From positions 6,434 to 70,433 of the forward strand of contig JAUVXR010000014.1 in NCBI GenBank assembly GCA_030603495.1: DNA of 64,000 nt, written 5' to 3'. The notes beneath the pieces are model-generated. The model was not told the DNA's origin and did not search any database. It saw only the letters and a program-made list of their open reading frames with translations. Below, piece after piece: positions 18,465 through 62,832 of the stretch. Made by a program: the position numbers and the translations under genes. This DNA is from a bacterium (GTDB lineage Bacteria > Armatimonadota > Zipacnadia > Zipacnadales > Zipacnadaceae). Position 1 is the first letter of the stretch; each line of letters opens with the position of its first letter.

Positions 18465-19601
18465 TTAGCCGAGGTAGAACTCACGGATAGCGTCTGTCAC
18501 TTGCAGGACTTCTCTTTCCGTGAGTTCATAATACAACGGAAGGCGCAGTATGCGCTCAGCCAGTTCCTCGGTAATCGGCAGTTGGCCCTGGCGGTAGCCC
18601 AGTCTCTGGCCCATCGGCGAAGTGTGCAGGGGCACGTAGTGGAAGACAGCGATAATATCGTGCGCAGCGAGGTGCTTGATGAGCGCCTGGCGCTCGTCAA
18701 TGTCGGCGGTGAGAATGTAATAAATATGCGCGTTGGGCGAGCAGTGTTCGGGCCATTGCGGCCGAAGCAGGAAGCCCTCCTGCTCCAGATCAGCAAGCGC
18801 CTCGTGGTACGTACGCCACAGTTCCATGCGCTGGGCGTTTATCATTTCTTCGTTCTCCAACTGGGCCAGCAGGAAAGCTGCAATTATCTCTGAGGGCAGA
18901 TACGATGAACCGACGTCCACCCAGCTATACTTGTCTACCTCCCCGCGCAGAAACTGAGCGCGGTTGGTGCCTTTCTGGCGAATGCTCTCCGCCTGTTCCG
19001 CGAACTCAGGAGAATTGACGGCCAGAGCTCCGCCCTCCCCCGAGATCAAGTTCTTAGTCTCGTGGAACGAGTAGCAGCCCAGCTCGCCGAAGGTGCCCAG
19101 GTAGCGCCCCCGGTAGTTAGCCCCCAGCGCTTGAGCTGCGTCCTCGACGACATACAGTCCGTGCCTTTCGGCCAGTGCTATGATCGCGTGCATCTCGCAG
19201 CCCACACCTGCGTAGTGCACCGGCACGATGACTTTGGTGCGGTCGGTGATGGCACCTTCGATAAGCTTCTCGTCGAGGTTAAGGGTGTCGTGACGGATGT
19301 CAATGAACCGGGGCCGAGCGCCCCGCAGTACGAAGGCATTAGCGGTCGAGACGAAGGTGTAACTGGGCATAATCACCTCGTCGTCCGGGCCAACGTCGCA
19401 GAGCAAAGCGCTCATCTCCAGAGCTCCCGTGCATGAGTGAGTCAGCAGCGCCTTAGGGATGTCGTAGCGCTGTTCGAGCAGGCGATGGCATTCCGCGGTG
19501 AACCGGCCGTCCCCGGCAATCCAGCCATCAGCAACTGCATCAGCTATGTTGGAGAGTTCGTTGCCAACGATGAAGGGCTTATTGAAGGGAATCCGAACCA
19601 G
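18465..19601 (-). CDS. wecE: dTDP-4-amino-4,6-dideoxygalactose transaminase, CTG start
   Basis: The 378-residue PLP enzyme follows E. coli WecE (376 residues) closely from end to end. It starts RIPFNKPFIVGNELSNI, continues PSYTFVSTANAFVLRGARP and VIVPVHYAGVGCEMHAI, and has the PLP lysine in CYSFHETKNLISGEGGA near residue 180. It makes dTDP-4-amino-4,6-dideoxygalactose from dTDP-4-keto-6-deoxyglucose and glutamate. The conserved N-terminus begins one codon after CTG 19599-19601. No ATG, GTG or TTG lies in frame between the upstream stop and codon 63. AGGAGGTGA precedes the CTG by six bases, so CTG is the likely start. Confidence 0.9.
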   Translation of the reverse strand: MVRIPFNKPFIVGNELSNIADAVADGWIAGDGRFTAECHRLLEQRYDIPKALLTHSCTGALEMSALLCDVGPDDEVIMPSYTFVSTANAFVLRGARPRFIDIRHDTLNLDEKLIEGAITDRTKVIVPVHYAGVGCEMHAIIALAERHGLYVVEDAAQALGANYRGRYLGTFGELGCYSFHETKNLISGEGGALAVNSPEFAEQAESIRQKGTNRAQFLRGEVDKYSWVDVGSSYLPSEIIAAFLLAQLENEEMINAQRMELWRTYHEALADLEQEGFLLRPQWPEHCSPNAHIYYILTADIDERQALIKHLAAHDIIAVFHYVPLHTSPMGQRLGYRQGQLPITEELAERILRLPLYYELTEREVLQVTDAIREFYLG

Positions 19602-19965
19602 CGTTGTTCACCTCCTAACACTCCAGTACCTTGTCCTGTAGTGCGATCTGGACGGGGCACTTCTGGACAATAACTCTCTCAGTCACCGACAACCTAGCAC
19701 TCACGACTTTCGCCGCGAGCGGACAGTTATCCTTGTCCGGGCTCTATATCTATACTGGATGATAATCTGCTGCAGGCGGCCATGTGTTGGTCCCCGAGCT
19801 CGCCTTCTCTCAGCTCGCCATTCGCCCACCCCATATTCATCGCGATACCTACTTGTCGGTGAAGTCGGGCCACGCCCAGGGCACGGGCGAAGCAAGGGTT
19901 CGTCCCTCGTTGGGAGAATATCACCATCAGGAACAACTCATCTGGGCAATCCTGAAGGAGGCGAG
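19602..19965. other. Divergent intergenic region between wecE and the cyclase-like gene
   Basis: Apart from the wecE ribosome site at 19608-19616, I see no convincing gene. AT-rich stretches near 19740-19765 (TATATCTATACT, GATAAT) could hold a minus-10 element for the plus-strand gene, but no good minus-35 is correctly spaced. Confidence 0.5.
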
Positions 19966-60142: not shown

Positions 60143-60811
60143 CTACCAGCCATGCTCGCCCACCAGGGGCACGAACACACAGCTAATGTTCTTCTGGATG
60201 GATAGCTCGCCTTGCTCTTTTGTCGCCGCTATGCAGGTCTGCACACCCCGGTCGCCCACCGGCGCCACCAGCCGACCGCTCTCGACAAGCTGCTCGGCCA
60301 GCGGCTCCGGAATGCACGGGGCGGCAGCCGCCACAATTATTCGATCATACGGTGCTGCTGGCGGATAGCCCAGGCTCCCGTCACCCAATACGACGAGAAC
60401 GTTGTCATAGCCCAAGCGGGCCAGGACCTCGTTCGCGCGCTCGGACAACGACTCGACTATCTCAATCGCATAGACCTCCGCGGCCAGCTCGCCCAGCAGC
60501 GCTGCCTGGTAGCCCGAGCCCGCGCCTATCTCCAGCACGCAATGGTCGCGATGGCAGTCGAGCAGTTCGAGCATCTTGGCCACCATATACGGTTGGGAGA
60601 TCGTCTGACCCTCGCCGATAGACAAAGCGCTGTCATCATAGGCAAAGCGCCGCTGGCCTTGGGGAAGGAACTGCTCGCGTGGCACCTCGAGCATCGCCGC
60701 CAGCACCCGCTCATCTTTGATGCCCCGCCGCCGGAGTTGGTGCTCGACCATCTCCGCACGCTGTCCCCCAAAGTCGGGATGAATTGAGCTGTCTGTCCTT
60801 CTCCTCAGCAT
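60143..60811 (-). CDS. pcm: Protein-L-isoaspartate O-methyltransferase
   Basis: The 222-residue enzyme repairs isoaspartyl damage in proteins using SAM. It has MVEHQLRRRGIKDERVLAAM, the active-site GEGQTISQPYMVAKMLELL, motif I VLEIGAGSGYQAALLGELA and DGSLGYPPAAPYDRIIV. The first 20 residues precede the family core, so a later start is possible. It diverges from the RsbU-like phosphatase. Confidence 0.94.
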   Translation of the reverse strand: MLRRRTDSSIHPDFGGQRAEMVEHQLRRRGIKDERVLAAMLEVPREQFLPQGQRRFAYDDSALSIGEGQTISQPYMVAKMLELLDCHRDHCVLEIGAGSGYQAALLGELAAEVYAIEIVESLSERANEVLARLGYDNVLVVLGDGSLGYPPAAPYDRIIVAAAAPCIPEPLAEQLVESGRLVAPVGDRGVQTCIAATKEQGELSIQKNISCVFVPLVGEHGW

Positions 60812-60934
60812 CTTAGGCTGTGCCAGTGATCGGCCAGTGCTACCCCTAGCAGGAATAATCAGTCTGCGCAGAGAACTATTAAGCTGGCAGTTGGGTCAAA
60901 CAATATTGAATTGACTGAAAGGAGGTGAAGAGAC

Positions 60935-62224
60935 CTGCCCACATTCGATCTGCCCCGGGGTTCCGACCGATTCCTCCCAATATGGGAAACTGACATCTTT
61001 GTGGGGCTATTCCGCACCGCCTTTATCATCGCATTTGTGGTCTACGGAACTCAGTCGCAGTTTAGTCTAGAGTTCCGCACGGCTGTCTGGGCCCTGCTGC
61101 TGATAGCCACCGTCTTCACCGTGGCGATCTTTCTGGCCTTCGGTGCCGGCCGCTCACTGCCCTATCAACGTTATTTTGCCCTGTCTGTTGACTTGATGTT
61201 GGTCACTGCCGCCCTGCTCATGACCGGTCCCGAGCAAGGCCAGGCGCTCTTTCCGGTCTATTACATAATCGTCCTGATCGGCGCGATATGGTTCCAGTTG
61301 GCCGGCGCAATTCTAACCGCAGTCTGCGCCATCGGCTTGTTTATGCTGATTCAGTATCTCTCGAATCCGAACCTACTTCTCTCTGATGCCGCCTTCAGCG
61401 TTTTGGATCACGGCGGACTGTTCCTGTTCCTAATCGCGGTGATTGGCGGCTTCCTCGTCCGGGCGCTTGACCGCCAGTACCGCGCCTCCGCCCAGTTCGT
61501 GCAGGAGCTACAATTGGCCCGTGCTGTCCAAGATACTATTCTCCCTGCGTCCCTGCCGAACGTGCCCGGCTGGGAGTTGGCCCTCCGCTTCGAACCGGCC
61601 CGTTGGGTCGGCGGCGACCTGTACGAAGTCGCCGAACTGCCTGACGGCCAATACCTGATCTGCCTGGGCGACATGCCTGGCAAGAGTGCTTACGGCCTAG
61701 TTCACCTGTCACTTGTCTACTCGCACGTCCGCACCAGCGCCTTCGCCGGGTTGTCGCCAGCAGCGGTAGCCAACCGTGTAAACCAGGCCGTCTATGACGT
61801 GCTGCAGCCATATAGTTACGCGCCCCTGTTCATCGGCATGCTCGCGCCGGCCTCCGCTATAATCAGTTTCGTCTCCTGCGGCCATCCTCCTCCCCTGCTG
61901 TTGGGCAGTGACGGCTCTCTGAAGCTACTCACCACCAACGGGATCGTCATTGGCGGCCTACGCAATCCTGACTACCAGCAGCAGCAGCACGCCGTCCAGC
62001 CGGGGGACATAGTAATCTGCTATACGGACGGCGTCTCGGGAGTGCGCGACCACGCCGGGGAGGAATTCGGTGAAGAGCGCATCGTCCAGGCGGCCAGAGC
62101 AGTCCAGGCGGAGGGTGGCTCGCTTGAAGACATCTGTCAGGGAATCATCGAGCAGTCCCAACGCTTTGCCGCCGATTCGCATGGGGATGACGCAACACTG
62201 CTGCTGCTGCGCCGCGCTGGCTAG
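60935..62224 (+). CDS. Membrane-bound RsbU/SpoIIE-type PP2C phosphatase, CTG start
   Basis: The protein of about 429 residues has six membrane segments in the first 170 residues and a PP2C-like SpoIIE domain after a short coil. The phosphatase shows ARAVQDTILPASLPNVPGWE, WVGGDLYEVAEL, LGDMPGKSAYGLVHLSL and ADSHGDDATLLLL. Relatives dephosphorylate anti-sigma-factor antagonists in stress signalling. The frame begins after a TGA at 60926. AAGGAGGTGA (60919-60928) stands six bases before CTG 60935, and the residues PTFDLPRGSDRFLPIW lead into the first membrane segment. GTG 61001 is the conventional alternative but has no ribosome site. Confidence 0.85.
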   Translation: MPTFDLPRGSDRFLPIWETDIFVGLFRTAFIIAFVVYGTQSQFSLEFRTAVWALLLIATVFTVAIFLAFGAGRSLPYQRYFALSVDLMLVTAALLMTGPEQGQALFPVYYIIVLIGAIWFQLAGAILTAVCAIGLFMLIQYLSNPNLLLSDAAFSVLDHGGLFLFLIAVIGGFLVRALDRQYRASAQFVQELQLARAVQDTILPASLPNVPGWELALRFEPARWVGGDLYEVAELPDGQYLICLGDMPGKSAYGLVHLSLVYSHVRTSAFAGLSPAAVANRVNQAVYDVLQPYSYAPLFIGMLAPASAIISFVSCGHPPPLLLGSDGSLKLLTTNGIVIGGLRNPDYQQQQHAVQPGDIVICYTDGVSGVRDHAGEEFGEERIVQAARAVQAEGGSLEDICQGIIEQSQRFAADSHGDDATLLLLRRAG

Positions 62225-62832
62225 CCCAGTGTCCGGATTACGCCGACAACCTTGCCGATGATCCGTACATTCTGGCTAATGATCGGCTCCATAGTCGCAT
62301 TTGCTGGGCGCAGTTCAATGGCGTCTTCGCGGGGATAGAAATGCTTGACAGTGGCTTCATCGTCCAGGAGCGCCACTACTACTTCGCCGGGCTGAGCGGT
62401 GGGTTGGTGACTGACCACCACCAGATCGTTGTCGAGAATGCCGGCCTCGACCATACTTTCACCGCTAACCCGCAGCATAAACAACTCGTCGCCAGCGAAC
62501 ATGCCCTCCGGGATGGGCAGACGGGTCTCGATATTCTCGGCCGCCAGGAGCGGCTCGCCGGCGGGTACCGTACCCAGAACGGGTACATAGCGGGCACTGG
62601 CCCGGGCATCGGCGGCGACCAGCGGCTTGACCGCGCGGTTCAAAGTGGGCACGCGCTCAATAAAGCCATCCTTTTCCAGAACACGCAGGTGAAAGAGTAC
62701 TGTGGACGGCGACTTGAGACCGACAGCAGCGGCAGTCTCTCGCATTGATGGGGGGTAACCGCGTTGCTGAGTCGTCTCGATCAGGTAGTCCAGGATTCGT
62801 CGTCGGCGGCCGATGAGTTCGGCGTCAGCCAC
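62221..62832 (-). CDS. lexA: SOS repressor LexA
   Basis: The 203-residue repressor has an N-terminal winged helix (RRRRILDYLIETTQQRGYPP, then SMRETAAAVGLKSPSTVLFH) and a self-cleavage domain. The Ala-Gly scission site is in LGTVPAGEPLLA, the Ser in RVSGESMVEAGI and the Lys in DDEATVKHFYP. It represses SOS genes until RecA triggers cleavage. It begins at GTG 62832 with AGGTGGTGA six bases ahead. It meets the phosphatase gene convergently with a four-base overlap. Confidence 0.96.
   Translation of the reverse strand: MADAELIGRRRRILDYLIETTQQRGYPPSMRETAAAVGLKSPSTVLFHLRVLEKDGFIERVPTLNRAVKPLVAADARASARYVPVLGTVPAGEPLLAAENIETRLPIPEGMFAGDELFMLRVSGESMVEAGILDNDLVVVSHQPTAQPGEVVVALLDDEATVKHFYPREDAIELRPANATMEPIISQNVRIIGKVVGVIRTLG

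Follow-up and report, generated by a model that had tools for sequence, protein, structure and literature searches.

In Escherichia coli, infC starts with an AUU codon, which is part of the autoregulation of IF3. This factor discriminates against codons other than AUG, GUG and UUG (reviewed in PMC4611024), and structures show that a variant initiator tRNA can be accommodated on CUG in the P site, its first pair being weak (PMC11497404). Among the closest described systems are those of Staphylococcus aureus, where infC (AUA), cvfC1 (AUU) and ccpN (AUA) combine a weak start codon with a near-complete Shine-Dalgarno sequence. Such non-canonical starts with extended Shine-Dalgarno sequences are conserved across related species, are gene-specific and not genome-wide, and yield approximately 10% of the expression obtained with AUG (PMC13009471). 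More generally, weak starts are associated with stronger Shine-Dalgarno sequences, purifying selection for AUG starts has been reported in bacteria, and a switch from AUG to CUG was recorded for 2 of 61,358 starts (PMC5622118).

The gene considered here lies in a window of 64 kb (the whole stretch of DNA analysed) from a bin of Candidatus Zipacnadia, a marine-sediment class of the Armatimonadota (PMC10290634). The source genome (G000) comprises 2.67 Mb in 62 contigs; its congeners, as far as they are named, are mostly Candidatus Zipacnadia bins as well. The gene encodes a membrane-anchored SpoIIE/RsbU-type PP2C phosphatase of 429 codons (60935–62224, forward strand) and very probably begins with a rare CTG behind a near-perfect ribosome-binding site. 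Its Shine-Dalgarno sequence AAAGGAGGTGA (60918–60928, +) is full-length, with a predicted anti-SD duplex of −17.8 kcal/mol, and is separated by the six bases AGAGAC (60929–60934) from CTG at 60935–60937 (+), such that the start region reads GAAAGGAGGTGA AGAGAC CTG CCC ACA. The frame is open from this CTG to 62224, and the in-frame stop TGA (60926–60928) within the Shine-Dalgarno sequence closes it upstream, so that only two codons precede the CTG. The original prediction had proposed this geometry, a Shine-Dalgarno sequence followed after six bases by CTG 60935, and the sequence bears it out. The site is among the strongest in the genome sample: the median anti-SD pairing of sampled genes is −8.5 kcal/mol, and only 8 of 372 reach −15 kcal/mol. 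Masking of the Shine-Dalgarno sequence by a leader hairpin is unsupported, as the predicted fold pairs it only partly and with a stability close to that of shuffled sequences (z = −0.14). A consensus search found no promoter-like or terminator-like sites.

The SpoIIE phosphatase domain (61640–62215, +; residues 238–429 of the translated protein, P0001) matches PF07228 with E = 9.9e-37 and 127 bits, against a curated cut-off of 25. Judged from the translation, the N-terminal half is hydrophobic and apparently membrane-spanning, unlike RsbU. Homologues are found in 57 of 61 relatives. The gene is flanked by a divergent gene that we take, from sequence similarity, to be a pcm-type methyltransferase (60143–60811, −), and by a convergent gene, presumably lexA as named from its sequence (62221–62832, −); no anti-anti-sigma gene adjoins the phosphatase at this locus. 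The order pcm, phosphatase, lexA (60143–62832) is retained in most relatives examined, with no known functional link.

The first in-frame ATG, GTG or TTG is GTG 61001 (61001–61003, +), 22 codons downstream of CTG 60935. As a standard start codon that is also present in G001, G008 and G013 besides the source genome, it would be the conventional choice, and the upstream Shine-Dalgarno sequence and CTG would then be coincidental. This is very improbable. The GTG has no ribosome site, as had been noted before: its predicted pairing is −4.3 kcal/mol, as against −17.8 kcal/mol upstream. The codon is GTC or GTT in G002–G006, and hence no start codon in five of the seven congeners, and across these genomes and G011 it reads GTC, GTT or GTA. 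A start at this position would also lose the conserved ETDIF residues of the WETDIF segment (60983–61000, +), which lies upstream of the GTG and is conserved in the congeners; the 12 codons around it show 68 synonymous versus 49 non-synonymous pair differences. Finally, members across the order share the upstream Shine-Dalgarno sequence and the NTG column. Judged by this comparison, GTG 61001 is not the start and is rejected. The further in-frame near-cognates CTG 60950, ATA 60980 and ATC 60995 likewise have no ribosome site.

The orthologues strongly support CTG 60935 as the probable start of the phosphatase. Nearly every member of the order has a near-complete Shine-Dalgarno sequence at the homologous place, followed by 5–6 bases and an NTG codon. 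Among 39 callable orthologues (the calls in L016, L021, L118 and L121 being less certain), the start column holds TTG in 22, CTG in nine, GTG in five and ATG in three. CTG is found in six of the seven congeners as well as in G011, G013 and G021, and the Shine-Dalgarno sequences of these nine orthologues range from −16.1 to −17.8 kcal/mol, with a spacing of 5–6 bases. On the protein tree CTG requires at least four changes, and is thus not a single inherited quirk; the four start codons together require at least ten. An assembly or base error behind the CTG is very unlikely, because it appears in six species whose genomes were assembled separately. Codon-by-codon compensation within the family was also considered and is rejected, since the three ATG orthologues have equally strong Shine-Dalgarno sequences; these are likewise present with TTG and GTG, and the strong site therefore belongs to the gene itself and does not serve to make up for CTG only. 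The first 11 residues of the protein are poorly conserved in sequence, hence the argument that they are translated relies on the conservation of the Shine-Dalgarno sequence and start column. In G002–G006 the spacing is five bases and an in-frame GTG inside the Shine-Dalgarno sequence constitutes a formal alternative start. We note that this GTG (L007–L011) might mislead gene callers.

The neighbouring genes served as controls. The lexA orthologues on the same contigs start with ATG in 24 and with GTG in two of 26 cases, and the pcm orthologues with ATG in 16 of 28 cases and otherwise mostly with GTG. For the pcm gene of the window itself the scoring chose an internal ATT, the natural start being ATG 60811. 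Overall start usage among sampled genes, with approximate start choice, is about 71% ATG, 21% GTG and 7–8% TTG. The weak start thus looks like a preserved feature of the phosphatase gene, and not like a sequencing error or a genome-wide habit.

A second gene of the window shows the same arrangement. The wecE-type transaminase (18465–19601, −; NF008687 E = 5.7e-175, TIGR02379 E = 4.9e-166) reaches the equivalog level for WecE, a dTDP-4-amino-4,6-dideoxygalactose transaminase, with 581 bits in NF008687 against a cut-off of 375. Its leader reads AGGAGGTGA-ACAACG-CTG, with the Shine-Dalgarno sequence at 19616–19608 and the CTG at 19601–19599 of the reverse strand, so that the six-base spacing claimed to match that of the phosphatase is indeed present. 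Its first standard start codon is reached only 62 codons into the conserved enzyme and therefore cannot be the start. The start column is conserved as CTG in G000 and G001, GTG in G013, TTG in G002, G003, G005 and G011, and ATG in G025, which strongly supports the CTG as the putative start of wecE. A close copy is absent from G004 and G006, hence the gene is patchy.

The original prediction went further and proposed that the whole lineage tolerates CTG initiation when the Shine-Dalgarno sequence is full-length. In favour of this reading, the window contains two unrelated genes whose starts are conserved as CTG or another weak codon, and CTG recurs in G011, G013 and G021; yet we consider the reading improbable. 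Shine-Dalgarno-CTG sites number two in the 64 kb, against 0.36 expected, and 5 of 100 shuffles reach two. The genome-wide scan that had been suggested, run as AGGAGGTGA-N4-8-CTG, gave four matches, and the reversed control pattern gave two. Two of the four are the phosphatase and wecE; the others (L001 and L004) are chance matches, antisense to genes or internal and away from gene starts. The site count is not significant by itself, and support comes from the orthologues. The genome-wide counts combine pattern searches with 864 kb of stretches and the window; within these, approximately 700 genes were sampled (373 and 327, called in 464 kb of the source genome and 400 kb of one congener). By a noisy measure, these sampled genes show no clear enrichment of CTG at Shine-Dalgarno distance over codon usage. 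On inspection only the phosphatase (in both genomes) and wecE were convincing, and neither the approximately 700 genes nor 83 orthologous pairs yielded a further convincing CTG start. Among the pairs, conserved rare starts with a strong Shine-Dalgarno sequence are restricted to the phosphatase (CTG/CTG) and a translin/TRAX-like gene (ATT/ATT). The scans cover CTG starts with a strong Shine-Dalgarno sequence, and a CTG without one would escape them. With two gene starts by pattern and no further convincing case, CUG initiation appears gene-specific: the orthologues uphold the CTG start in each of the two genes, and the extension to the lineage does not pass the genome-wide test that the original prediction had set for it.

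Other rare starts occur in the order. The translin/TRAX-like gene (L084, 15785–16420 of G000:C7), whose best solved relative is AfTRAX, has an ATT start after GAGGTGA-N6; at its start column, congeners and others have ATT, several relatives ATA and the rest ATG. The apparent start of infC is ATA or ATC across the order (L151, G000:C24:118145–118645, and L127–L156), six bases after a site of the type GGGGTGA or GGGAGTGA, which agrees with the rare start already described for this gene.

A single initiator-type tRNA was found in the genome, and its anticodon is CAU (L079, 10049–10125 of G000:C20). Its anticodon stem is AGG/CCT, in which A29-U41 replaces the first of three G-C pairs; the same stem occurs in all order members with a match, one of which has a second, GGG/CCT copy-like match, and most other Armatimonadota examined have GGG/CCC. 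A search by the GGG-CCC stem pattern found no initiator tRNA with a CAG anticodon; the matches to the pattern all carried CAT and were not tRNAs. The infC, translin-like and initiator tRNA data would be compatible with a lineage in which several rare starts are conserved. It is conceivable, if improbable, that the phosphatase, wecE, the translin-like gene and infC form a regulon set by initiation fidelity (the level or state of IF3) in a lineage with an A29-U41 initiator tRNA. Like infC, the phosphatase couples a rare, conserved start to a good ribosome site; the autoregulatory loop of infC belongs to IF3 itself, and a role of IF3 at the phosphatase would be hypothetical.

The best-supported mechanism would be direct initiation at CUG by fMet-tRNA, held in place by the extended Shine-Dalgarno sequence. 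The ordinary initiator tRNA with its CAU anticodon would read CUG 60935 via a first-position mismatch, and the near-perfect Shine-Dalgarno sequence would keep the 30S subunit in register on this codon, so that initiation would be possible, yet below the level of AUG. A weak NUG start with a maximal Shine-Dalgarno sequence would be an old trait of the phosphatase gene in the order, in which the codon may drift among UUG, CUG and GUG with AUG being rare. This pattern suggests that selection keeps initiation at a set, modest rate. We consider it quite likely that translation of the phosphatase begins at CUG 60935, with the weak start, the maximal Shine-Dalgarno sequence and selection for a modest rate as parts of one explanation. 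The geometry and its conservation are direct observations, from which we infer a translation start at this codon, a low yield and a possible regulatory role.

The main rival concerns only the regulatory part, namely whether the weak start was selected to hold expression low. The codon might be near-neutral under a near-perfect Shine-Dalgarno sequence and drift between TTG and CTG, which are a single transition apart. Site strength that is equal for every codon and the repeated changes on the tree would be expected under such drift, which we regard as possible, though the less probable account. Drift under purifying selection for AUG (PMC5622118) predicts more ATG than the three of 39 found here, and ATG is kept by lexA and most genes of the same genomes. 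The phosphatase shares with the reported GUG/UUG compensation the association of a weak start with a strong Shine-Dalgarno sequence; the latter is a statistical trend in which CUG is nearly absent (PMC5622118), whereas the phosphatase is a whole orthologous group with weak starts and, unlike that trend, retains a strong site even with ATG.

The combination of a conserved weak start and a maximal Shine-Dalgarno sequence is a known principle (infC, ccpN, cvfC1); what appears new is the lineage and the use of CUG. The S. aureus cases involve AUU and AUA and are proven experimentally, whereas the CUG, UUG and GUG starts of the Armatimonadota phosphatase and wecE are predicted from sequence. The usual gene callers generally disallow CTG starts, and bacterial annotations contain almost no CUG starts; genes with such starts would therefore be truncated or lost. 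An orthologous group with weak starts and maximal Shine-Dalgarno sequences would provide a clean natural test of whether the weakness of a start codon sets expression, and would extend a principle shown experimentally in Staphylococcus to the Armatimonadota.
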